Source of the DNA: Micromonospora chersina | GTDB taxonomy: Bacteria > Actinomycetota > Actinomycetes > Mycobacteriales > Micromonosporaceae | Assembly: GCF_900091475.1 (NCBI RefSeq) | Contig: NZ_FMIB01000002.1 | Coordinates: 496,001 to 560,000, forward strand | Length of the DNA: 64,000 nucleotides | Direction of reading: 5' to 3' | In this document: positions 1 through 40,442 of the stretch, piece by piece | Layout: each line of letters begins with the position of its first letter | How positions within the stretch are numbered: the stretch's first letter is position 1 | Notes under the pieces: generated by a model | What the model was told of the DNA's origin: nothing | Seen by the model: the letters and a program-made list of their open reading frames with translations, nothing else | Database searches by the model: none | Position numbers and translations under genes: made by a program

Positions 1-1013
1 CGCAGGGACAGCGCCGTCCGGCCCGGTGGCGCGGGCCGCGCCCCGCCGGCCGGCGCGGCCCCGCCGGGCGCCGGGACGGCCGTCCGCAGGAGCCGGTCCA
101 GGGTCACGGTGAACCGCAGCCCGCCGGCGGCCACGCCCTGGACGAGGGTGTGCAGGGCGGGTTGCACCCCCCGCACGACGTAGACCAGGGCGCCCAGCAC
201 CGCGCCCGGCCCGAGGCCCTGCCGGACCAGCCACGGGGTGGCGAGCACGACCACCGGCACCGGCAGCCAGCCACCCACGGCCAGGCTGAGGCCACGGGTG
301 ACCGCCATGGCGGCGAGCCGTCGCTCCACCCGCGCCTGCGCGTCGACGTGCCGGCCCACCCAGCGCGTGACCTGCTCCCGCGCGCCGCTCACCGACACGT
401 CGCGGTGGCCGGTGACCGCCGTGACCGCGACCCGGGTGAGGCGTTCGTCGGCGAGCACGTACTCCCGCTGGCGGGCGATCATCGCGGGCACGGCGGCCGC
501 GAACAGCCCGAGACCGGCCAGCACCGGCACGGTGACCAGCAGGGCGACCGGGGCGGCGAGGGAGAACAGCCCGACGATCGCGGCGCACGCGGCGAACAGG
601 AAACCGCGGACCACCGTCAGGAGGCCGGCCCAGGTGTCCCGGACGATCTCCACCTGGTGGGTCAGGCGGCCCACCGCCGCGTCGTCGACCCGGCCGCCCG
701 TCGCGCCCGCCAGCGCGCCGGCCACCACCCGGCGCAGCAGGTCGTCGCGGAACGGCTCGACCACGTCGCCGAGGCACGCGTACGCCCGGTTCGTGCCCAC
801 GGCGCCGACCAGCACGGCGGCGGCCAGCAGCCCCAGCCAGAGCAGCCCGACCGCCGGACGCCCGGCCAGGAAGCCGGCGTCCACGGCCCGGGCGGTGAGC
901 AGCCCGGTGAGCGCCGCCGGCAGCGCCTCGGCCGCCGACCACGCCGCCAGCCGCACGAGCGCGGCCCGCCGTGCCCGCAGCGCGGCCCGGGTCACCGCAC
1001 CGACAGTGGTCAC
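1..1013 (-). CDS. ABC exporter half-molecule (RamA/RamB-like), 3' part outside window
   Basis: This frame opens with GTG at 1013 and stays open to the left edge, so only the first 337 codons are visible. The readable part is a hydrophobic membrane domain of an ABC exporter with several alternating hydrophobic stretches; the ATPase domain must lie beyond the window. Its GTG overlaps the TGA of the preceding ABC gene in a GTGA arrangement, so the two are translationally coupled. RamA and RamB in Streptomyces are a pair of ABC exporters next to the SapB genes, and the position here fits the second partner, forming a heterodimeric lanthipeptide exporter. Because the nucleotide-binding domain is missing I cannot say which of the two half-sites carries the intact catalytic glutamate. 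Stretches in other frames over this interval are less plausible. Confidence 0.85.
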   Translation of the reverse strand, partial: MTTVGAVTRAALRARRAALVRLAAWSAAEALPAALTGLLTARAVDAGFLAGRPAVGLLWLGLLAAAVLVGAVGTNRAYACLGDVVEPFRDDLLRRVVAGALAGATGGRVDDAAVGRLTHQVEIVRDTWAGLLTVVRGFLFAACAAIVGLFSLAAPVALLVTVPVLAGLGLFAAAVPAMIARQREYVLADERLTRVAVTAVTGHRDVSVSGAREQVTRWVGRHVDAQARVERRLAAMAVTRGLSLAVGGWLPVPVVVLATPWLVRQGLGPGAVLGALVYVVRGVQPALHTLVQGVAAGGLRFTVTLDRLLRTAVPAPGGAAPAGGARPAPPGRTALSL

Positions 1014-2740: not shown

Positions 2741-2860
2741 TCAGTGGCAGGTGGTGAGGCTCAGCGAGCTGTCGCCGCAGAGCAGCAGGCTCGCCTGGCT
2801 GCCCCCGCCGTAGTTCTCGGTGGTCGGCAGTTCCATCGCCTGGAGGTCGAGCAGAGCCAT
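2741..2860 (-). CDS. SapB-like class III lanthipeptide precursor 2
   Basis: A 39-residue precursor too short for most gene finders. It begins MALLDLQAMELP, a leader matching the LanKC-recognised LxLQ-type helix of RamS/AmfS peptides, and ends with the core SQASLLLCGDSSLSLTTCH. The core holds two SxxSxxxC units (SQASLLLC and SSLSLTTC), the arrangement that class III synthetases turn into lanthionine or labionin rings. Apart from the last residues it matches the SapB core of Streptomyces coelicolor. ATG at 2860 has GAAGGAGAAGGATC just upstream. It lies 63 bases downstream of the first precursor, which it strongly resembles: the cores differ at only two positions (I/L and terminal K/H), the leaders more. 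Product: presumably a secreted, surface-active morphogenetic peptide. Confidence 0.93.
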   Translation of the reverse strand: MALLDLQAMELPTTENYGGGSQASLLLCGDSSLSLTTCH

Positions 2861-2923
2861 GATCCTTCTCCTTCTGTCGTGACGGGTGTGTCGGGTCGTG
2901 GTCGTCGTGGATGGACGGCCGGG

Positions 2924-3043
2924 TCACTTGCAGGTGGTGATGCTCAGCGAGCTGTCGCCGCAGAGCAGCAGGCTCGCCTGGCTGCCACCGCCGGTACGCT
3001 CGGCGGCCGGCAGCTCCATCCCCTGGAGGTCGAGCAGGGCCAT
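2924..3043 (-). CDS. SapB-like class III lanthipeptide precursor 1
   Basis: A 39-residue precursor with leader MALLDLQGMELPAAERTGGG and core SQASLLLCGDSSLSITTCK. As in RamS there are two SxxSxxxC ring motifs; Ser/Thr dehydration and Cys addition by the neighbouring LanKC is expected. ATG at 3043 follows a near-perfect ribosome site, GAAGGAGGTG. The gene begins 73 bases after the lanKC stop on the same strand. Only the final residue and a single Ile/Leu exchange separate its core from that of precursor 2, so the pair probably arose by duplication. Known family role: SapB is an extracellular surfactant that lowers surface tension for aerial hyphae. That this peptide does the same is inference from core identity and gene order. 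Confidence 0.94.
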   Translation of the reverse strand: MALLDLQGMELPAAERTGGGSQASLLLCGDSSLSITTCK

Positions 3044-3081
3044 GTCGTGTCACCTCCTTCCGTGCGCGTCGGGTCGGACCG

Positions 3082-3101
3082 CCCCGGGGTGACCCCCGGG
3101 G
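3082..3101 (-). terminator. Short GC hairpin between lanKC and precursor genes
   Basis: Two CCCCGGGG arms (3082-3089 and 3094-3101) separated by TGAC lie between the lanKC stop and precursor 1. No U-tract. It may attenuate or define an mRNA end between enzyme and precursor genes; function unproven. Confidence 0.4.
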
Positions 3102-3116
3102 AGCTGGTGGGGCCGG

Positions 3117-5699
3117 TCAGTCGCCGGCCGGTGGGGTGGGCCGGGCGGGTGCCGCGCCGGGCAGTGGCGTGAGGAACGGCAGCCGGCCCGGGCTCGCCGG
3201 CCGGGTCGCCGCGAGGGCGCTCAGCACGCCGGCGGTGCCGGTGGCCAGGTCCATGGACAGCCGCAGCAGCTGCTCGCCGGGGAAGGCGATCCCGTCCCGG
3301 TACGGCAGGGCGTGCCAGCTCAGCAGCCGGGCCTGCCGGCGAGCCGGTTCCCGCTCACCTCGCCCGGCCAGGTACGTGACGATCCCGGCGCGGCCGGCGA
3401 ACAGCCCGGACTGGGCGTAGAACGGGAAGTCGGCGCAGCGGCGGATGTCCTCGGCCGCGCCGCGGAGGTCCTCGCCGCCGCGGAGGCGCAGGTACTGGTC
3501 GAGCACCAGGCCGATGCCCACGCTGCCCTCGCCCAGGTAGGGCATGGTCCGCCAGCCCTCGTTGACCTCCAGGTGGCCGGCGTCGCGCCGGACGCACCGG
3601 CGCAGGTCCTGCCGCAGCGCCGTCTCGGCGTGGTCGAGGAGGCTCTCGTCGTGGTCCAGCTCGTACATCCGCAGCAGCATCAGCGCGGTGCCGGCGCCAC
3701 CCCGGAGCAGTCCGGCGTGCGGGTGGCGGCCACCGCTGACCTCGGCGACCGACTCCACGTCGCCGAGCCGGCCGACGACCACGTCGACCGCTCGCCGGGC
3801 GGCGTCGGCGTACCGCCGGTCGCCGGTGCGCCCGGCGAAGTGGGCCAGGTTGAGCGCGATGCCGGACAGGCCGCTCATGAGGTCGTCGCCCAGCTCGGTC
3901 CACGGCTCGTCGAGGCAGCGGTCCAGCAGCCGCAGCGCCTCGCCGTGGTGCCCGAGCAGGTCCAGCACGTACGCGACGCCGTGCAGCCCGTCGTAGAAGC
4001 CGAGCCGGCTGCCCGACGCGGGTTCCCGCACCCGGTCGATGAGCCACCGCTCGTGCCCGGGGTCGGTGCCGGCGCCGCTGGTGTGCAGCGCCCAGAGCAC
4101 CCCGGCCGCGCCGTGGGCCAGGTTCAGCCCGCCGTCGGCGCCGGCGAACTGCCGGATGTCGCCGGGGAAGAGCCGGTCGTCGCGGTGCGGGGTGGCGCTC
4201 GCGCCGATCGCGGCGGCGAGCCGGTCCCGCAGTGCCGGCCAGTCCTCCGGGTCGGTACGCGGCCCGACCGGGTGGCCGGGCGTGTGGCCGGTTCCGGTGG
4301 CGGCCTCGCCGAGGATCACGGCGACCGACTCGTCGAGCAGCTCGCGGGGGACGGGGAAGTGCTCCGCCACCACCTCGGCCAGGTGGGCCGCCTTCTCCGG
4401 CGCCAGCCGGAGCATCGCGGTCAGCGGCAGGAAGAGGGCCAGCCGCAGGCAGGCCAGGGCGTACCGGTCCACGTCGAAGCCGGTCCGGTCGCGGGGCGCG
4501 GCGAAGGCCTGGTTGCGCAGTGCCGGCCGGGCGGCCGCCGCGGCGGGGGTCGCGACCTCGAAGTCGACGAGCGTGACGTCCCCGTCGTCGCCCACCATGA
4601 TGTTGAACATGTGCAGGTCGCCGTAGACCACGCCGTGGGCGTGGATGGCGTCCACCGCCTCGGCGACCTGCCGGTGCAGGTCGAGGGCCCACCGGGTGTA
4701 CGCCTCCCGGTCGGCGTCGAGATGGACCAGCGGGTAGCGCTCCACCACCAGCCGGTTCAGGGGGCGGCCCTCGACGAACGTCAGCGCCAGGAACTCGTGC
4801 CCGCCGAAGCTGAACTCGTCGTGCACGCGTACCAGGTGCGGCACCCCGGCGAGCCGGCGCAGCGTCTCGGCCTCCCGGCGCAGCCGGGTCACCGCGTCCG
4901 CGCCCGTGGCGTCCAGCCCGGCGTGCGGGCGGGCCTCCTTGAGCACCACCCGGTCCCCGGTGCGGGTGTCCCGCGCCTCGTAGAGACCGCCGCCGTTGGA
5001 GAAGTGGATGACCTTCTCGATCCGGTAGGGCAGGTCGGTGGTGGTCGCGGCGTTCCGGGCGGCCAGGTGCGGGGCGAGGAAGTCGGGCAGGGTCACCCAG
5101 TCCGGCACGTGGAAGACCGGGTCGCGCCGGTCGGGCACCAGGGTGCCGGAGGCGTCCTCGACGGCCGGCACCACCTGGCCCTCCGCCGAGATGCAGTACC
5201 GGGCGGCGAAACCGCCGTAGCGCAGGTACACCGGGCCGTCGCCGTACCGCAGGTCGCTCAGGATGTACGGCCCGGTCTCGCCGTCGAGCAGCGCGGCCAG
5301 CTCCTTGGCGGTCAGCTCCAGCTCCGCGTCGTCGCGGGGGTAGACGGTGATGAACTTGCCGCTGGCGGCCCGGCGGGCGTACTTGCTGTTGCGCATGAGC
5401 AGCATCCGCGGACCGCGCAGGTGCTTGAACGGGATGCCGCGGGGCTCGCAGTAGTCCATCACCCGGGCCAGCACCCGCTCGGCGTTGTCCAGCCGGGCCG
5501 ACACGTGGATCTTCCAGCCCTGGGAGGGGAGCGAGCCGGCGACCGGACCGTGGACCAGCCAGTCGTCCTTGACCTCGCGCTTCCAGCCGGGCGCCGGCGG
5601 CCGGTCCGCCGCGTAGCCGGGGGCCTCGACGTCCGAGCTGGCGAGCGAGTCGTAGAACAGCGGATCGACCGCGCAGTACGAGTCGTACCGTTCGTCCAT
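3117..5699 (-). CDS. ramC: Class III lanthionine synthetase LanKC (RamC-like)
   Basis: An 860-residue three-domain enzyme that dehydrates Ser/Thr of the precursors and cyclises them with Cys. The ATG at 5699 (MDERYDSYC) is chosen because GGAGG sits eight bases upstream and RamC/AmfT proteins begin in this way; an ATG 26 codons upstream lacks a ribosome site. Residues about 1-215 form the phosphoserine/threonine-lyase region; about 225-480 a Ser/Thr-kinase-like domain with glycine loop FSNGGG, Lys254 (VVLKEA), YGDLHMFN (Asp361, Asn366) and DFE (Asp379); about 530-850 a LanC-like cyclase. The cyclase lacks the Cys-Cys-His zinc ligands of class I/II LanC, as expected for class III. Its length fits the family. 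Downstream genes on the same strand supply the precursors and exporters. No RamR-like regulator is visible, but it could lie beyond the left edge. Confidence 0.95.
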   Translation of the reverse strand: MDERYDSYCAVDPLFYDSLASSDVEAPGYAADRPPAPGWKREVKDDWLVHGPVAGSLPSQGWKIHVSARLDNAERVLARVMDYCEPRGIPFKHLRGPRMLLMRNSKYARRAASGKFITVYPRDDAELELTAKELAALLDGETGPYILSDLRYGDGPVYLRYGGFAARYCISAEGQVVPAVEDASGTLVPDRRDPVFHVPDWVTLPDFLAPHLAARNAATTTDLPYRIEKVIHFSNGGGLYEARDTRTGDRVVLKEARPHAGLDATGADAVTRLRREAETLRRLAGVPHLVRVHDEFSFGGHEFLALTFVEGRPLNRLVVERYPLVHLDADREAYTRWALDLHRQVAEAVDAIHAHGVVYGDLHMFNIMVGDDGDVTLVDFEVATPAAAAARPALRNQAFAAPRDRTGFDVDRYALACLRLALFLPLTAMLRLAPEKAAHLAEVVAEHFPVPRELLDESVAVILGEAATGTGHTPGHPVGPRTDPEDWPALRDRLAAAIGASATPHRDDRLFPGDIRQFAGADGGLNLAHGAAGVLWALHTSGAGTDPGHERWLIDRVREPASGSRLGFYDGLHGVAYVLDLLGHHGEALRLLDRCLDEPWTELGDDLMSGLSGIALNLAHFAGRTGDRRYADAARRAVDVVVGRLGDVESVAEVSGGRHPHAGLLRGGAGTALMLLRMYELDHDESLLDHAETALRQDLRRCVRRDAGHLEVNEGWRTMPYLGEGSVGIGLVLDQYLRLRGGEDLRGAAEDIRRCADFPFYAQSGLFAGRAGIVTYLAGRGEREPARRQARLLSWHALPYRDGIAFPGEQLLRLSMDLATGTAGVLSALAATRPASPGRLPFLTPLPGAAPARPTPPAGD

Positions 5700-5886
5700 G
5701 TCGTCTGCCTCCACCGGCTGATCGGGTGAGGTCAATCCTGCGGACGGCGGAGGGGTGGGCAAAGTGTGATGAGTCATGACCGGCGCGTGATTTTCACACC
5801 CCGAAATCGTGACAACGGCGGAGTTTGAAATCGCGAATGCGGCGCCACCAGTGCGGGCGTCGGCCGCCGGTGCCGCCGGAACGAGC

Positions 5887-5921
5887 GAGGACCCGCACCG
5901 GCCGGGCCGGTGCGGGTCCTC
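5887..5921 (-). terminator. Strong terminator-like hairpin after the S1 protease gene
   Basis: Arms 5887-5903 and 5905-5921 are perfectly complementary over 17 bases (the innermost few form the loop). It lies 43 bases past the protease stop on the minus strand and upstream of lanKC, so it should insulate the lanthipeptide operon from protease transcription. Confidence 0.8.
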
Positions 5922-5964: not shown

Positions 5965-6816
5965 TCAGTAGACGGTCACGCCGTACGCGCTCGCCGCCTC
6001 GGTGACCGGCTGGTAGAAGGTGGTGCCGCCGGTGCGGCAGTCACCGCTGCCGCCGGAGGTGATGCCCAGCGCCTTGGTGCCGTCGTAGAGCGGGCCGCCC
6101 GAGTCGCCCGGCTCGGCGCAGACGGTGGTCTGGATCATGCCCCGGACCGTGCCGCCGCCCTGGTAGCGGACCGTCACGTTCAACGCGGTCACCGTGCCGC
6201 TGTGGGTGCCGGTGGTCGACCCGGTCCGCTTCACCGACTCACCCACGACGGCGTTCGCGGCGGTGTAGCCGCCCGGGTGGCTGAGCGCGGCGTTGTCGTA
6301 GCGGACCAGGGCGTAGTCGTTGCCCGGGAAGCTGGAGCTGATGGTCGGGCCGATCAGGGTCTTGAGCCCCGAGTCGGTGTACCAGGTCTTGGCGACGTTG
6401 CCGCAGTGCCCGGCGGTGAGGAAGTAGTAGACGTTCGACTTCACCACGTTGAACCCGAGCGAGCAGCGGTAGCCGCCGCCGTAGATGGCGTTGCCGGCCG
6501 ACAGCAGCGGGCGGAAGGTGCCGCGGGCCCGGTCGACCCGGATGGCGCCCGCCTCCGTGCCGGCCTTCCTCTTGATGGTGGCGACCTCGGCGGCGGAGAC
6601 GCTGTCGTCGGCGGTCACCACGACGCGGCCGGAACCGGCGTCCACACGCCAGGCGATGCCCTGCACGCCGGAGGCCGCGACGGCGGCGTCGGCGCGGGCC
6701 AGCTGGTCGGCGGTGAAGCTCGGTGCGGCCGACGCGGCGCCGGGAACGGCGAAGGCGCCGGCGGCCACCAGGCCGACGGTCGCGGCGAGCAGGGGGGTGA
6801 GTCGGCGGATTCTCAC
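5965..6816 (-). CDS. Secreted S1-family (streptogrisin-like) serine protease
   Basis: A 283-residue secreted trypsin-fold protease. An N-terminal signal peptide ([19 protein letters not shown], Ala-rich cleavage region near residue 30) is followed by a short pro-region and a catalytic domain from about residue 105. The triad is visible as [14 protein letters not shown] and GDSGGPLY, and Cys pairs fit the streptogrisin/alpha-lytic type. The GTG at 6816 has GAGGAG seven bases upstream. The 75-100-residue pro-region is shorter than in classical streptogrisins. A close paralogue lies at 27521-28360. It sits directly upstream of the lanKC operon on the same strand but is separated by a strong hairpin. 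A part in lanthipeptide leader removal is conceivable but unproven. Confidence 0.9.
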
Positions 6817-7005: not shown

Positions 7006-9798
7006 ATGGTCGAACTGAGCGGCGACGCGCGGGACGGACTGGAGGCGGTGGTGCCCGGCGGGGTGACCACCCGGGCCGCGGACCGGCTCCGGCTGGCCCA
7101 CGACGCGTCGCACTACCTGCTGCACCCGAGCGCCGTGGTCACGCCGGCCGACGCCGACCAGGTCGCCGCCCTGCTGCGGCACAGCCGCCGCACCGGCACC
7201 CCGCTGACGTTCCGCTCCGGCGGCACCAGCCTCAGCGGCCAGGCGGTCACCGACCGGCTGCTTGTCGACACCCGGCGGCACTTCCGCGACCTCGACGTCC
7301 TCGACGAGGGCCGGCGGGTGCGGGTGCAGCCCGGGGTGGTGCTGCGGCAGGTCAACGCGCGGCTCGCCCCGTACGGCCGCAAGCTCGGCCCCGACCCCGC
7401 CAGCGAGTCCGCCTGCACCGTCGGCGGGGTGGTCGCCAACAACTCCAGCGGGATGACCTGCGGCACCGAGTTCAACACCTACCGCACCCTGGAGTCGCTG
7501 CTGCTGGTGCTGCCCAGCGGCACCGTGCTCGACACCGGCGCCCCCGACGCCGACGCCCGGCTGCGCGCCGCCGAGCCGGAACTGCACGCCGGCCTGCTGC
7601 GGCTGCGCGACCGGGTCCGCGGCAACCCCGACTCGGTGCGCCGGGTCCGCGCCCAGTACGCCATGAAGAACACCATGGGGTACGGGGTGAACGCCTTCCT
7701 CGACCACGACGAGCCCGCCGACCTGCTGACCCGCCTCGTCGTGGGCAGCGAGGGCACCCTCGCCTTCGTCGCGGCGGCGACGTTCCGCACCGTACCCGTG
7801 CACCGGCACGCCGCGACCGGCCTGCTGGTCTTCGACACCCTGGGCGCGGCGATGGCCGCCATGCCGGCGCTGGTGGCCGCCGGGCCGGCGGCGATCGAGC
7901 TGCTCGACGCGGCCGCCCTGCGGGTGGCGCAGCGGGACCCGCGGGCGGACGCCGCGCTGCGCGGCCTGCCGGTGCGCGACCACGCGGCGCTGCTGGTCGA
8001 GTGGCAGGAGTCCGACCCGGAGGCGCTGGCCGAGCGGGTCGCCGCCGCCCGGCTGGTCCTGGCCGACCTGCCGCTGACCACCCCGGCCCGGCTCAGCGGC
8101 GAGGCCGCCGCCCGCGCCGCGCTCTGGCACATCCGCAAGGGCCTGTACGCGGCGGTGGCCGGCGCCCGCCCGTCCGGCACCACCGCGCTGCTGGAGGACA
8201 TCGCCGTCCCGGTCGAGGCACTCGCCGGCACCTGCGCCGCGCTCGCCGACCTCTTCGACAGGCACCGGTACGAGGAGAGCGTCATCTTCGGCCACGCCAA
8301 GGACGGCAACCTGCACTTCATGCTCAACGAGCGGTTCGCCGACGGCGCGGCCCCGGCCCGCTACGCGGACTTCACCGAGGAGATGGTCGACCTGGTCCTC
8401 GGCCACGGCGGCACGCTCAAGGCCGAGCACGGCACCGGCCGGGTCATGGCCCCGTACGTGCGCCGCCAGTTCGGCGACGAGCTGTACGCGGTGATGCGCG
8501 AGGTCAAGACGCTGTGCGACCCGGACGGCGTGCTCAACCCGGGCGTGCTGCTCAGCGACGACCCGGAGATCCACATGCGGCACCTGAAGACCGTGCCGAC
8601 CGTGGAGGAGGAGGTGGACCGCTGCGTCGAGTGCGGCTACTGCGAGCCGGTCTGCCCGAGCCGCGACCTCACCACCACCCCGCGGCAGCGGATCGTGCTG
8701 CGCCGGGAGATCGCCGCCGCCCGCGCCGACGGGAACCCGGCCCTGGCCCGCGAGCTGGAGAAGGCGTACGACTACGACGCGGTGGACACGTGCGCCGTGG
8801 ACGGCATGTGCGCCACCGCCTGCCCCGTCCTCATCAACACCGGCGACCTGGTGCGGCGGCTGCGGGCCGACCGCACCGGCGGGGTGGCGCAGGCCGGCTG
8901 GCGGGGCGCCGCCCGCGGCTGGGGCGCCACCACCCGGGGCATGGCCCGCGGGCTCGACCTGGCCGGCGCGCTGCCGCCCGCGCTGCCCGAGGCCGCCACC
9001 CGGGCCGCTCGCGCGGTCCTCGGCGCCGACCGGGTGCCGCAGTGGCGGCGTGACCTGCCCCGGGGCGGCCGGCCGCGCCGCCCCCGCCCCGCCGACGAGC
9101 CGGACGCCGTCTTCGTCCCGTCCTGCCTCGGCACCCTGTTCGCGCCCGCCGAGGGCGGCTCCGGCGTGGCCGCCGCCCTGCTCACCCTCGCCGACCGGGC
9201 CGGCGTACGCCTGCTCGTGCCCGAGGGGATCGGCAGCATGTGCTGCGGCACGCCCTGGTCCTCGGAGGGCCTCACGTCCGGCTACGAGGCGGTGCGCGAC
9301 CGGGTGCCGCCGGCGCTGCTCGCGGCCAGCCGCGACGGCGCGCTGCCGCTGGTCAGTGACGCCGCCTCCTGCACCGAGGGCTTCGCGAAGCTGCTCGCCG
9401 GGGCCGGCGACCTGCGCGTGGTCGACGCCGTCGCGTACGCGGCCACCGAGTTGCTGCCCCGGCTCACCGTGCGCCGCCGGCTCGGCTCCCTCGCGCTGCA
9501 CCCGACCTGCTCGTCCACCCGGCTCGGGCTGGACGACGCCCTGCTCGCCGTGGCCCGCGCCGTCGCCGACGAGGTGGTGGTGCCGGACGGCTGGCAGTGC
9601 TGCGGCTTCGCGGGCGACCGGGGGCTGCTGCACCCCGAGCTGACCGCGTCGGCCACCCGCGCCGAGGCCGCCGCCGTAACCGCCCGCTCCTTCGACGGGT
9701 ACGCCTCGGTCAACCGCACCTGCGAGATCGGCATGGCCCGGGCCACCGGGCAGCCGTACCGTCACCTGCTCGAACTGCTGGCCGACGCGACCGCCTGA
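7006..9798 (+). CDS. Fused FAD-linked dehydrogenase / 4Fe-4S / CCG-domain protein (D-lactate or 2-hydroxyacid type)
   Basis: A 930-residue fusion resembling GlcD plus GlcF, also like E. coli YdiJ. Residues about 40-180 are a PCMH-type FAD domain (SGGTSLSGQA, then the TVGGVVANNSSG loop), about 220-490 the FAD-oxidase C domain including HAKDGNLHF and EHGTGR. A ferredoxin-like segment starts near residue 540 (CVECGYCEPVCP) with a second cluster CAVDGMCATACP. Two CCG modules follow (CCGTPWSSEG near 746, CCGFAGDRG near 865), typical of heterodisulfide-reductase-like and lactate/glycolate oxidases. Likely a membrane-associated enzyme oxidising a 2-hydroxyacid such as D-lactate and passing electrons to quinone; the substrate cannot be told. 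ATG 7006 has GGAGGTG upstream. The 189-base gap to the divergent protease gene holds both promoters; none is obvious. Confidence 0.9.
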   Translation: MVELSGDARDGLEAVVPGGVTTRAADRLRLAHDASHYLLHPSAVVTPADADQVAALLRHSRRTGTPLTFRSGGTSLSGQAVTDRLLVDTRRHFRDLDVLDEGRRVRVQPGVVLRQVNARLAPYGRKLGPDPASESACTVGGVVANNSSGMTCGTEFNTYRTLESLLLVLPSGTVLDTGAPDADARLRAAEPELHAGLLRLRDRVRGNPDSVRRVRAQYAMKNTMGYGVNAFLDHDEPADLLTRLVVGSEGTLAFVAAATFRTVPVHRHAATGLLVFDTLGAAMAAMPALVAAGPAAIELLDAAALRVAQRDPRADAALRGLPVRDHAALLVEWQESDPEALAERVAAARLVLADLPLTTPARLSGEAAARAALWHIRKGLYAAVAGARPSGTTALLEDIAVPVEALAGTCAALADLFDRHRYEESVIFGHAKDGNLHFMLNERFADGAAPARYADFTEEMVDLVLGHGGTLKAEHGTGRVMAPYVRRQFGDELYAVMREVKTLCDPDGVLNPGVLLSDDPEIHMRHLKTVPTVEEEVDRCVECGYCEPVCPSRDLTTTPRQRIVLRREIAAARADGNPALARELEKAYDYDAVDTCAVDGMCATACPVLINTGDLVRRLRADRTGGVAQAGWRGAARGWGATTRGMARGLDLAGALPPALPEAATRAARAVLGADRVPQWRRDLPRGGRPRRPRPADEPDAVFVPSCLGTLFAPAEGGSGVAAALLTLADRAGVRLLVPEGIGSMCCGTPWSSEGLTSGYEAVRDRVPPALLAASRDGALPLVSDAASCTEGFAKLLAGAGDLRVVDAVAYAATELLPRLTVRRRLGSLALHPTCSSTRLGLDDALLAVARAVADEVVVPDGWQCCGFAGDRGLLHPELTASATRAEAAAVTARSFDGYASVNRTCEIGMARATGQPYRHLLELLADATA

Positions 9799-9822: not shown

Positions 9823-10245
9823 GTGCTGCGCAACTGGTGGATGGCCGGTCTGATGCTGGTGGTCGGGGCGCTCGCCGCGCGCAGCGCGGCCACCCCGGTG
9901 GTGGGGGCCGTCGAGTTCCTGGTCTTCGTGGTGGTGGCGGCGCTCTTCTCGCCGCTGGCGTTCCCGCGATCGCTGCCCGCCGCCGAGGCGCGGGAGCGCA
10001 GCGCCCGTGACGGCCGGCCGGTGGTCTACTGGCGACCCGGCTGCCGCTACTGCCTGCGCCTGCGACTCCGCCTGGGTCGCCGGGCCGGCCGGGCGCACTG
10101 GGTGAACATCTGGCGCGACCCGGACGGGGCGGCGGCGGTCCGGGCGGTCACCGGAGGCGACGAGACGGTCCCGACCGTGGTGCTGGGCGACGAGGCCGTG
10201 GTGAACCCGGAGCCGGGCTGGTTGCGCGACCGCCTGCCGTCCTGA
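9823..10245 (+). CDS. Membrane-anchored glutaredoxin/mycoredoxin-like protein
   Basis: A 140-residue protein starting at GTG 9823, 24 bases after the preceding gene. Residues about 5-50 are strongly hydrophobic and likely form two membrane helices. The remainder is a small thioredoxin-fold domain with the CxxC motif in RPGCRYC, then GDETVPTVVLGDEAVVNP, which contains the cis-Pro (TVP) typical of glutaredoxins and mycoredoxins. It should reduce disulfides or mycothiol mixed disulfides at the membrane face. Actinomycetes make mycothiol, so mycoredoxin is more likely than a glutathione enzyme. The following gene starts 11 bases downstream, suggesting an operon. Confidence 0.8.
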   Translation: MLRNWWMAGLMLVVGALAARSAATPVVGAVEFLVFVVVAALFSPLAFPRSLPAAEARERSARDGRPVVYWRPGCRYCLRLRLRLGRRAGRAHWVNIWRDPDGAAAVRAVTGGDETVPTVVLGDEAVVNPEPGWLRDRLPS

Positions 10246-10256
10246 CGGAGCGGGCG

Positions 10257-11306
10257 GTGGACCGGCAGACTGGTGCCGTGGACGGGATACGGGAACTGCT
10301 CGGGGTGGATGTGCCGGTGGTCGCGGCGCCGATGGCCGGCGGGCCGACCACCACCGGGCTGGCGACGGCGGTGGGCGCGGCCGGGGCGTTCGCGTTCCTG
10401 GCCGCCGGCTACAAGACGCCGGAGGCGGTGGCGGCGGAGGTCGCCGACCTGCGCGGCAGCGGCCGGCCGTTCGGGGTGAACGTCTTCGTGCCCACCCCGG
10501 TGCCGGTGGCGGAGGCGGAGTTCCGCCGCTACGCCACCCGCATCGCCGCCGAGGGCGCGCCCTACGGCCTGGACCTGGCGGCCGCCCCCCGCACGGAGGA
10601 CGACGACCACTGGGCGGCGAAGCTCGACCTGCTGCTCGCCGACCCGGTGCCGGTGGTCAGCTTCACGTTCGGCCTGCCCCCGGAGGCGGTGGTCCGGGAC
10701 CTGCGGCGCGCCGGCAGCCGGGTGCTGGTCACCGTCACCGACCCGGCCGAGGCGGCGGCCGCGGCCGACCTCGGGGTGGACGGGCTGGTCGCGCAGAGCG
10801 GGGCCGCCGGCGGGCACCTCGGCACCTTCACGCCGGACGCCCCGCCGCCGCTCCGCCCGCTGCCCGACCTGCTCGCGCTGGTCGCCGAGACCGGCCTGCC
10901 CGTGCTGGGCGCGGGGGGCGTCGGCGGCCCCTCGGACGTCCGGGCGGCGCTCGCCGCCGGCGCCGCCGGCGTGCTGGTCGGCACGCTGCTGCTGCGTGCG
11001 GACGAGAGCGGCGCCGGCCGGACCCACCGCGATGCCCTCGCTGACCCGGCACGCGACCGGACCGTGGTCACCCGCGCCTTCACCGGCCGCCCTGCGCGCG
11101 GGCTGCGCAACGACTTCATCGACCGGCACGAGGCGGCGGCCCCGCTGGGCTACCCCGCGCTGCACCACCTGACCCGGCCGCTGCGCGTCGCCGCCGCCGG
11201 GGCCGGGGACGCCGACCGCCTGCACCTGTGGGCCGGCACCGGCTGGCGCGGCGCCCGGGCCGCTCCGGCCGCCGACATCCTCGCGGACCTGACCCGCACG
11301 CTCTGA
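10257..11306 (+). CDS. Nitronate monooxygenase-like FMN protein (NPD/NMO family)
   Basis: A 349-residue TIM-barrel flavoprotein. It opens with the family hallmark VPVVAAPMAGGPTT, continues with FGVNVFVPTP and the central VDGLVAQSGAAGGH motif (FMN-phosphate and catalytic His region), then GAGGVGGPSDVRAALAAGA and GVLVGTLLLRADESG. NMO enzymes oxidise alkyl nitronates such as propionate-3-nitronate; many relatives have unknown substrates. GTG 10257 has GGAG six bases upstream; a second in-frame GTG at 10278 (MDGIRELLGVD) also fits family N-termini, so the true start could be seven codons later. Follows the redoxin gene closely. Confidence 0.85.
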   Translation: MDRQTGAVDGIRELLGVDVPVVAAPMAGGPTTTGLATAVGAAGAFAFLAAGYKTPEAVAAEVADLRGSGRPFGVNVFVPTPVPVAEAEFRRYATRIAAEGAPYGLDLAAAPRTEDDDHWAAKLDLLLADPVPVVSFTFGLPPEAVVRDLRRAGSRVLVTVTDPAEAAAAADLGVDGLVAQSGAAGGHLGTFTPDAPPPLRPLPDLLALVAETGLPVLGAGGVGGPSDVRAALAAGAAGVLVGTLLLRADESGAGRTHRDALADPARDRTVVTRAFTGRPARGLRNDFIDRHEAAAPLGYPALHHLTRPLRVAAAGAGDADRLHLWAGTGWRGARAAPAADILADLTRTL

Positions 11307-37599: not shown

Positions 37600-39147
37600 A
37601 TGAGCGATCTGCCCGTCCTCCTGGAGATGCGCTCCATCACCAAGGAGTTCCCCGGCGTCAAGGCCCTGGCCGACGTCAACCTGGTGGTCCGTGCCGGTGA
37701 GATCCACGCCATCGTGGGCGAGAACGGCGCCGGCAAGTCGACGCTGATGAAGGTGCTCAGCGGCGTCTACCCGTACGGCAGCTACGACGGCCAGATCGTC
37801 TACCAGGGCGCGGAGACCCGCTTCTCGGACATCCGGGCGAGCGAGAACGCCGGGATCGTGATCATCCACCAGGAGCTCGCGCTCATCCCGGACATGTCGA
37901 TCACCGAGAACATCTTCCTCGGCAACGAGCCCCGCAAGCGGGGGGCGATCGACTGGAAGGCCGCCAACCGGATGGCGCTGGACCTGATGGCCCGGGTCGG
38001 CCTGCGCGAGGACCCGGACACCCTGATCAAGGACATCGGTGTCGGCAAGCAGCAGCTCGTGGAGATCGCCAAGGCGTTCGCCAAGGACGTCAAGCTGCTG
38101 ATCCTGGACGAGCCGACGGCCGCGCTCAACGAGGCCGACTCGCAGCACCTGCTCGACCTGCTGCGCGGCTTCCGCTCGCGCGGCATCACCTCGATCATGA
38201 TCTCGCACAAGCTGAACGAGATCGAGGCGATCGCCGACCGGATCACGGTCATCCGGGATGGCCGGACCGTCGAGACGCTGGACGTCAAGGCGGACGGCGT
38301 CGACGAGGACCGGATCGTGCGGGGCATGGTCGGCCGCGAGCTGAGCAGCCGGTTCCCGGACCACACCCCGAAGATCGGCGAGGTCTTCTTCGAGGTCCGG
38401 AACTGGAACGTCCGGCACCCGATCTCCGCCGAGCGGCAGGTCTGCAAGGACGAGAGCTTCACCGTACGGCGCGGCGAGATCGTGGGCTTCGCCGGCCTCA
38501 TGGGCGCCGGCCGCACCGAGCTGGCCATGAGCGTCTTCGGCCGCTCCTACGGGGTGTACGAGTCGGGCACGATCATCAAGGACGGCAAGGAGATCGTCCT
38601 GAAGTCGGTGGCGGACGCGATCGCCCACGGGCTGGCGTACGTCAGCGAGGACCGCAAGGCGCTCGGCCTGAACCTCCTCGACGACATCAAGACCTCCACG
38701 GTGGCCGCCAAGCTGTCGAAGATCTCGCGCCACGGCGTCCTGGACGAGGTGGCCGAGTACAAGGCGGCCGAGGCCTACCGGCGGGACCTGCGCACCAAGG
38801 CGCCGACGGTCGACGAGGGCGTCTCCAAGCTCTCGGGCGGCAACCAGCAGAAGGTCGTTCTGGCGAAGTGGATGTTCACCGACCCGGACCTCCTGATCCT
38901 CGACGAGCCGACCCGCGGCATCGACGTGGGCGCCAAGTACGAGATCTACGGCATCATCCAGCGGCTCGCCGACCAGGGGAAGGGCGTCGTCGTCATCTCC
39001 TCGGAGCTGCCCGAGCTGATCGGGCTCTGCGACCGCATCTACACCGTGTTCGAAGGCGCCATCACCGGCGAGATCGCCCGGCAGGACGCGGACCCGGAAA
39101 CCCTCATGAAGCAGATGACCTCGACGAAGAAGATGCAGACACGATGA
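37600..39147 (+). CDS. Sugar ABC transporter ATPase (MmsA/XylG/GguA-like)
   Basis: A 515-residue tandem ATPase. The N-terminal half has Walker [10 protein letters not shown] and Walker [12 protein letters not shown]; the C-terminal half has a degenerate Walker A (GLMGAGRTE) and LSGGNQQKV with [12 protein letters not shown], the layout of carbohydrate uptake ATPases of the CUT2 group (XylG, RbsA, MmsA, GguA). The start ATG 37600 has AAGGTGG eight bases upstream; a GTG at 37588 is less likely. It overlaps the permease gene in ATGA. Together with the permease and binding protein it should import a monosaccharide or group of monosaccharides. Order ATPase-permease-binding protein is opposite to the chvE-gguA-gguB layout. 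Confidence 0.94.
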
Positions 39148-40442
39148 GCCGAATCAAGGACCTGCAGAAGAACCTCTTCGGAGGGACCACGTCCAACGCC
39201 CGCCAGTTCGGGATGATCTTCACCCTGGTGGCGATCGTCGTCCTGTTCCAGATCCTCACGGACGGCCTGACCCTGCGGTCGGACAACCTGATCGCGCTGT
39301 TCAACCAGAACTCGTACATCCTCATCCTGGCCATCGGCATGCTCATGGTGATCGTCGCCGGGCACATCGACCTCTCGGTCGGCTCGATCGCCGCCTTCAC
39401 CGGCATCCTGGTGGCCAAGTCGATGGCGGAGTGGTCGCTGCCCTGGCCCGCCGCCATCCTGTTCGGCCTGGTGATCGGCGCGATCATCGGCGCCTGGCAG
39501 GGGTTCTGGGTCGCCTACGTCGGGGTGCCGGCGTTCATCGTCACCCTGGCCGGCATGCTGCTCTTCCGGGGCGGCAACCAGTTCATCGGCAACGCGAACA
39601 CCATCTCGGTGCCGGAGGGCTTCCGGGTGATCGGCTCGGGCTTCCTGCCCGAGGTCGGCCCGAACACCGGCTACAACAACCTGACGCTCCTGCTCGGCCT
39701 CGCCGCGTGTGTGGCAGTGGTGTGGCGGGAGTTCCAGGCCCGCAAGACCCGCCGGGAGATGGACGCCGAGCCGGCCCCGATGTGGATCTCGGTGCTCCGG
39801 ATGGCCGTCATGGTCGGCGTCATCGTCTTCGCGTCGCTGCGGTTCGCCAGCGGCCGGGTCGGCACGAGCTTCCCGGTCTCCGGCATCATCCTGGTGGCGC
39901 TGGTCCTGGCCTACTCCTTCTACACCCGGAACACCGCCGGCGGCCGGCACATCTACGCCGTCGGTGGCAACTCCCGCGCCGCGGAACTGTCCGGTGTGAA
40001 GCTCAAGCGGGTCAACTTCTTCGTCATGATGAACATGGCCGTCCTGGCCTCCCTGGCCGGCATGATCTTCGTGGCCCGCTCCGCGGCCTCCGGGCCGCAG
40101 GACGGCAACGGCTGGGAGCTGGACGCGATCGCCGCGGTCTTCATCGGTGGCGCCGCCGTCGCCGGCGGCATCGGCACCATCAGCGGCTCGATCGTCGGCG
40201 GTCTGGTCATGGCCGTGCTGAACAACGGCCTCCAGCTGCTCGGCGTCGGCACCGACCGGGTCCAGATCATCAAGGGCCTCGTGCTGCTGCTGGCCGTCGC
40301 GCTCGACGTCTACAACAAGAAGCAGGGCAAGTTCTCCGTCATCGGCAGCCTCACCCGCTCGTTCCGCCGGGACACGCCCGCCCCGCCCACGGCACCGCCC
40401 GGCGCTGACCGGGAAACCGCCCGCACGGCCGTGCCGAGCTGA
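39144..40442 (+). CDS. Sugar ABC transporter permease (MmsB/GguB-like)
   Basis: A 432-residue permease starting at ATG 39144, overlapping the ATPase stop in ATGA. About 10 to 12 hydrophobic helices; hallmarks are [38 protein letters not shown] and [25 protein letters not shown] hydrophilic loop ([18 protein letters not shown]) in the middle and long length are typical of the MmsB/GguB branch of CUT2 permeases. The Pro-rich C-terminal tail is cytoplasmic. It forms the membrane channel with the ATPase before it. Confidence 0.93.

Follow-up and report, generated by a model that had tools for sequence, protein, structure and literature searches.

A ram gene set (Table 1) occupies the leftmost 5.7 kb of the window, the 64,000-nucleotide stretch of Micromonospora chersina DNA analysed here (positions 496,001 to 560,000 of contig NZ_FMIB01000002.1). 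We consider it very likely that these genes form a Micromonospora ram (SapB-type) class III lanthipeptide operon that looks functional. The synthetase gene lanKC is followed by two precursor genes and then by two ABC exporter genes, ramA and ramB, as in the ram/amf loci. The GTG start of ramB overlaps the stop of ramA and the gene is cut by the window edge; the neighbouring DNA (L006) contains it in full, with 594 amino acids (aa). For comparison we used 81 loci, namely the best 80 by lanKC among 233 confirmed loci plus the window locus.

Table 1 Features of the ram locus; coordinates are positions in the window.
Feature	Position	Strand	Basis
lanKC (ramC-like class III lanthionine synthetase, 860 aa)	5699-3117	minus	NF038151, RamC_N, Pkinase and LANC_like domains
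ramS copy 1 (adjoins lanKC), 39-aa precursor ending ...SITTCK	3043-2924	minus	PF19402, NF033212
ramS copy 2, 39-aa precursor ending ...SLTTCH	2860-2741	minus	PF19402, NF033212
GC-rich 15-bp hairpin, gap between ramS copy 2 and ramA	2694-2727	minus	shuffle test and covariation
ramA, ABC exporter half, 555 aa	2677-1010	minus	ABC_membrane and ABC_tran
ramB, ABC exporter half, GTG start	1013 to window edge (1..1013)	minus	reading in L006
Dyad 5' of lanKC, candidate operator/promoter	5763-5814	minus	pattern search

The synthetase and both precursors are assigned by curated models. The lanKC product scores 1087 bits against the class III LanKC model NF038151 (cut-off 575) and 381 bits against the LanL model, below its cut-off of 650, and is thus a LanKC and not a LanL. 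It also scores 270 bits against RamC_N (PF25816) and carries Pkinase and LANC_like domains; its best relative of solved structure is 9wj0 (292 bits). The product contains the stretches LKEARP, YGDLHMFN and LVDFE, which we take to be kinase motifs. The host genome holds one lanKC, and four further matches span the kinase region only. The two ramS genes encode MALLDLQGMELPAAERTGGGSQASLLLCGDSSLSITTCK (copy 1) and MALLDLQAMELPTTENYGGGSQASLLLCGDSSLSLTTCH (copy 2). Each precursor scores 63.1 bits against the Pfam family RamS, PF19402 (cut-off 24.3), and against the NCBIfam model SapB_AmfS_lanti, NF033212, copy 1 scores 67.7 bits and copy 2 66.9 bits (cut-off 25). Chance is not a reasonable explanation for the precursor matches, since their scores, like that of lanKC against NF038151, lie far above the curated cut-offs. 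Both precursors have an LLDLQ-type leader helix and two SxxSxxxC core motifs, and their core is nearly identical to that of SapB. The LLDLQ leader motif and the tandem SXXSXXXC motifs are named for the family in PMC13380574.

Most of what the initial annotation had read from the letters of the window holds. It called a SapB/RamS-type class III lanthipeptide locus, borne out by the PF19402, NF033212 and NF038151 scores, and two near-identical tandem 39-residue precursors, which are where it placed them, with two SxxSxxxC motifs in both cores. The ramC-ramS-ramA-ramB order it gave corresponds to lanKC, two ramS, ramA and the overlapping ramB as read here, and the host, which it had supposed might lie outside Streptomyces, is a Micromonospora. 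Its lanKC start is also the better choice. The longest open reading frame begins at 5777, beyond that start, but the start at 5699 is favoured because the ribosome-binding sequence GGTGGAGG stands just 5' of it and because relatives (for example L013, L014 and L052) have in-frame stops 5' of the equivalent codon.

Two LuxR/NarL-type regulator genes are convergent with ramB, at L006:10691-11299 and 9868-10575. This pair (L006:9868-11299) lies 0.7-2.1 kb to the left of base 1 of the window, outside it. The GerE domains of both regulators match Pfam, and the receiver halves give no match. Both are adjacent RamR/AmfR-type regulators, sharing 36-46% identity with the lone regulator that Streptomyces loci have at this position; this likeness to RamR is homology of position and family and not a direct comparison with the S. 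coelicolor protein. In the 81 loci, two regulators convergent with and just past ramB occur in 35, one in 27 and none in 19, some of the last being loci where the contig or the locus ends there. The 35 paired loci are 33 from Micromonospora together with L044 (Actinoplanes) and L047 (Catenuloplanes). In the records of L019, L023 and L040 a pair lies 1.5-2.6 kb past ramB (for L040, taking the matched contig as the locus's own), and in L043, a Micromonospora locus without ramA and ramB, the pair lies beyond lanKC. The 11 Streptomyces loci that cover this stretch have a single regulator in the same place and orientation.

In a tree of 93 of the 97 regulator sequences (four shorter than 160 residues were omitted), regulator 1 and regulator 2 of Micromonospora each form one clade, with support of 99/93 and 93/73, respectively. 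At the presumed receiver positions, the first acidic residue and the lysine are absent from regulator 1 in 33 of 33 aligned rows. In regulator 2 the lysine is retained in 26 of 33 rows and the aspartate in 22; 18 of the 33 rows have no residue at the acidic positions, a gap for which the choice of start codons may account. Single regulators from other genera also show partial degeneration (lysine 10 of 20, first acidic residue 14 of 20). Control by TTA codons was considered and rejected, as none was found in lanKC, either ramS, ramA, ramB or either regulator.

An alignment of the regions upstream of lanKC in 28 Micromonospora loci brought the dyad to light. In its final form, NTGTCAY-N15..40-RTGAC-N5..7-CACT, the pattern stands 5' of lanKC in all 40 Micromonospora loci, the 12 unaligned ones among them, and in four of the 41 other loci (L019, L023, L044 and L047). 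It occurs nowhere else in the 2,228,352 bases (both strands) of the 81 loci, and its one match in the 6.68-Mb host genome is the site upstream of lanKC. Genus-wide, 120 of 160 genomes have a match. In at least 68 of the 70 listed precursor-positive genomes, out of 83, the dyad shares strand and contig with the precursor and lies 2.0-4.5 kb 5' of it; among the matches listed, those of G003 and G090 are on contigs other than the precursor's. At least 77 listed matches are unlinked to a precursor and the reversed pattern also matches, up to four times per genome, and the short pattern therefore has a background of less than one per genome. Among the loci compared, the dyad goes together with the regulator pair. 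A pair beyond ramB or lanKC is present in all 39 dyad-bearing loci that could be judged (35 scored by script, and L019, L023, L040 and L043 by hand; five of the 44 were too short). The 37 loci without the dyad gave two regulators past ramB in none of the 29 judged (23 have one and six have none; eight were too short).

The hairpin between ramS copy 2 and ramA likewise recurs. In 30 of 34 loci the perfect stem after the last ramS is longer than in all 50 single-base shuffles; the hairpin of L028 could not be measured. In a set of 19 hairpins, 7 of 14 pairs have changed on both sides and the covariation score is above all 500 shuffles and all slid controls. The 100% pairing in this set is due to the selection of its members for a perfect stem. 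We read the hairpin as an attenuator or a stabiliser of the messenger RNA (mRNA).

The regulator pair and the dyad, which we propose to be an operator/promoter, are the part of the locus worth following, and they give a concrete handle on its switching. Our tentative suggestion is that the Micromonospora-type ram locus may be a regulatory variant in its own right, in which two divergent RamR-like regulators, each with a partly lost phosphorylation pocket, would act as an obligate pair, possibly a heterodimer, on a dedicated dyad upstream of lanKC. They would drive a SapB-type peptide that is independent of chaplins and aerial hyphae and might, for example, wet or protect the spores borne on the substrate mycelium. 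Several observations weigh against our overall reading of the locus. The first dyad pattern hit 29 of the 40 Micromonospora loci and 6 of the 41 remaining ones, missing 11 of the 40, including 7 of the 12 outside the alignment, and the first base of the final pattern was loosened after the alignment had been inspected again. Related species in the dyad counts are not independent events, and shared ancestry could explain the association of dyad and pair. Four of the 34 loci (L008, L009, L010 and L012) have no long perfect stem after ramS. Finally, L048 and L053, which come from other Micromonosporaceae and have no dyad, do have a second LuxR-type regulator: at L048:2913-3485 and L053:3616-4218 it lies 1.8-3.2 kb upstream of lanKC, in addition to one beyond ramB.

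A working order of events can be proposed for the locus. Transcription of lanKC is probably driven from the dyad by the two RamR-like regulators adjoining ramB, and the hairpin after the precursors probably holds precursor mRNA above exporter mRNA. LanKC would bind the LLDLQ-type leader helix, phosphorylate and eliminate core serines, and close two thioether rings in each RamS precursor; mature SapB contains two lanthionines and two dehydroalanines. The expectation in the initial annotation of masses fitting "four dehydrations less ring closures" is a wrong mass rule, because closure of a thioether ring leaves the mass unchanged. For four dehydrations, the predicted monoisotopic neutral masses are 1967.944 (copy 1) and 1976.908 (copy 2) for cores with two leading Gly, and 2024.966 and 2033.930, respectively, with three. 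The class III cyclases are described as zinc-independent in PMC10604976. RamA and RamB, as half-transporters, would export the product. The leader would be trimmed by a protease encoded elsewhere, with an M1 (AplP-like) peptidase as the candidate: M1 peptidase matches occur at seven places elsewhere in the host genome, and the leader protease AplP is placed in the M1 family in PMC10885120.

SapB is a peptide that helps Streptomyces hyphae to break into the air. The chaplin family PF03777 has no match in any of 160 Micromonospora genomes. The control genomes of that search gave no match either, and a separate positive control was used, which gave 6, 8 and 10 matches in three of three Streptomyces genomes and none in three Micromonosporaceae. 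The aerial-growth role known from Streptomyces is not simply transferable because no chaplin was found in these 160 genomes, and a role as morphogen is doubtful here. The product is most likely a secreted amphipathic surface peptide that acts without chaplins or aerial hyphae. It is rather unlikely that it has a SapB-like role as in Streptomyces, lowering surface tension so that hyphae rise into the air. Such a role would suit a core nearly identical to that of SapB, and almost the same core stands beside a 53%-identical lanKC in Streptomyces diastatochromogenes (L082). One identical core is also shared by 32 of 66 SapB-type precursors, spread over 45 of the 81 loci (18 of them with two or three); the low variability of these cores is not counted as evidence, since the pattern used to choose the 66 leaves few core positions free. 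The SapB-like role is opposed by the lack of chaplin matches and, with some disagreement between sources, by the growth habit of the genus: none of the Micromonospora strains studied formed aerial hyphae according to PMC5765111, whereas PMC9011353 lists Micromonospora among the formers of aerial hyphae. A near-identical SapB core in about half of a genus that gave no chaplin match and is reportedly without aerial hyphae offers a clean test of other roles for SapB-type peptides.

A SapB-type locus with a duplicated precursor is ordinary and common within Micromonospora, and is a known kind of system. The SapB/AmfS precursor model has a match in 83 of 160 Micromonospora genomes, 82 of them above the curated cut-off; one match is found in 47 genomes, two in 30 and three in 6 (36 of 83 with several), counts that take in G100 (a single match below the cut-off, at a contig end), G128 (two extra matches, weak and located elsewhere) and G155 (two matches at the ends of two contigs). 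The two weak RamS-like matches of G128 (G128:C1:3863105-3863584) lie apart from its SapB-type locus and possibly belong to a further class III locus of this Micromonospora genome. In a family-level sample 124 of 300 genomes from 25 of 44 genera gave a match, and in a class-wide sample the precursor protein itself was matched in 23 of 394 genomes. SapB clusters were reported in 2018 in "almost half" of Micromonospora genomes (PMC5765111), and the literature search, which drew on partial texts, turned up no recognised description of tandem ramS or of paired RamR-like regulators in Micromonospora.

Relics of the locus were sought in five precursor-negative genomes with a ram-like dyad, taken from at least 39 listed dyad-pattern matches in such genomes, most of which look like background. 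L118 has a full-length lanKC match and regulators, and no match to ramS, ramA or ramB. Fragments of lanKC lie 3' of the dyad in L116 (E value 2e-33) and, shorter, in L117 (9e-8) and L119 (3e-6); in L115 the dyad is followed by a 17-residue lanKC stretch only (E value 0.067). No close relative of regulator 1 was found in the L115, L116, L117 and L119 genomes (best identity 42%). At least part of the patchy distribution of the ram locus therefore looks like loss, as far as these remnants indicate.

The role of the second precursor was judged from the 16 loci whose tandem copies are all 39 aa long. Two copies with identical cores occur at 5 of the 16 (L011, L013, L015, L016 and L021), and across these loci neither the last residue (K, H or N) nor the leader type (AAERT or TTENY) is tied to the first or second copy. 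Few pairs have leaders as divergent as those in the window, at a nucleotide identity of 0.81 (0.78 in L007); the cores of this window pair have an identity of 0.94. In a check for gene conversion at 12 loci, nucleotide identity between copies within a genome was 0.90 for the leader and 0.96 for the core; copies at matching positions in different species gave about the same values, 0.89-0.91 and 0.94-0.95, respectively. Because cores can be identical and residues and leaders are not bound to position, we infer that the copies are duplicates for dosage or diversity and not a fixed pair. The second precursor would then have arisen by local tandem duplication and would contribute dosage and a little variety of peptide, without being an obligate partner.

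That the second precursor is instead a decaying duplicate without a product is improbable: tandem copy number does vary, and five ram loci of the genus that were looked at are incomplete, but both copies in the window retain the start, the ribosome-binding site, the leader motif and every core Ser and Cys, and their PF19402 scores are equal. Still harder to sustain is a genuine two-component surfactant or lantibiotic whose peptides depend on each other, for although both precursors are intact, have divergent leaders and differ in core residues (I/L, K/H), and tandem copies recur across the genus, two distinct and conserved partner cores were not found, a last residue of K, H or N marks neither copy, five of the 16 loci have identical cores, and 47 of the 83 match-bearing genomes have a single match. 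The two-peptide surfactant suggested in the initial annotation from the TTENY/AAERT leaders and the His/Lys ends is rejected on the same grounds as a conserved feature, as these differences are not kept and some cores are identical.

The locus can be set beside known systems. The S. coelicolor ramCSAB/ramR locus shares the order of synthetase, precursor and ABC pair, and a core with two SxxSxxxC motifs. It has one precursor and one regulator, in contrast to two and two in the Micromonospora locus, whose genes and regulators also differ in having no TTA codon, in a genus without a chaplin match. The make-up of the S. coelicolor locus, including its dependence on ramR, is given in PMC4255298. 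Among named species in the 80 loci retained, M. chaiyaphumensis (L007) comes closest; its locus has the same genes, dyad and regulator pair and a 97% identical lanKC, with small substitutions in the ramS core and leader; other Micromonospora species differ in ramS copy number as well. Several precursors served by one LanKC are also found with ThurKC of Bacillus thuringiensis (PMC10604976), and several precursors, there 13 identical ones, in a class III cluster of B. cereus (PMC7268733). These hosts belong to another phylum, and the ThurKC system has M16B leader proteases and divergent precursor cores, unlike the window locus. According to PMC7268733, 57% of class III precursors stand alone in their cluster by prediction, so that many do not. 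Class II two-component lantibiotics likewise have two precursors per cluster, but in an example from PMC9576775 their cores are dissimilar, whereas those of the window locus are near-identical and share one LanKC.

Some precursors elsewhere depart further from the SapB type. The Micromonospora okii precursor at L045:8671-8787 differs strongly in its core, SNASVVLCPISVMSLITC, and comes with a related lanKC (66%), the dyad and the regulator pair, perhaps through replacement of the core under the same machinery. The precursors at L049:3537-3686 (Dactylosporangium) and L051:8717-8875 (Planosporangium) are 49 and 52 aa long, with extra Ser and Cys residues and perhaps a third ring.

Next to lanKC in the window lie a gene for a secreted S1-type (trypsin-like) serine protease (5965-6816, minus strand) and a gene for an FAD/Fe-S oxidoreductase fusion (7006-9798, plus strand). 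Across the 80 loci, this pair of genes recurs beside lanKC in the close relatives L007, L016 and L017 alone. The protease gene was not taken into the cluster, and the protease was rejected as leader protease, because it adjoins lanKC in these three loci only; a relative of the gene is present in L020, on the other strand. A very strong GC hairpin (5888-5920), perhaps a transcription terminator, separates the protease gene from the promoter region of lanKC. Farther into the window, positions 38001-40000 have the lowest G+C content of the 32 two-kb bins, 0.671, the others ranging from 0.697 to 0.794.

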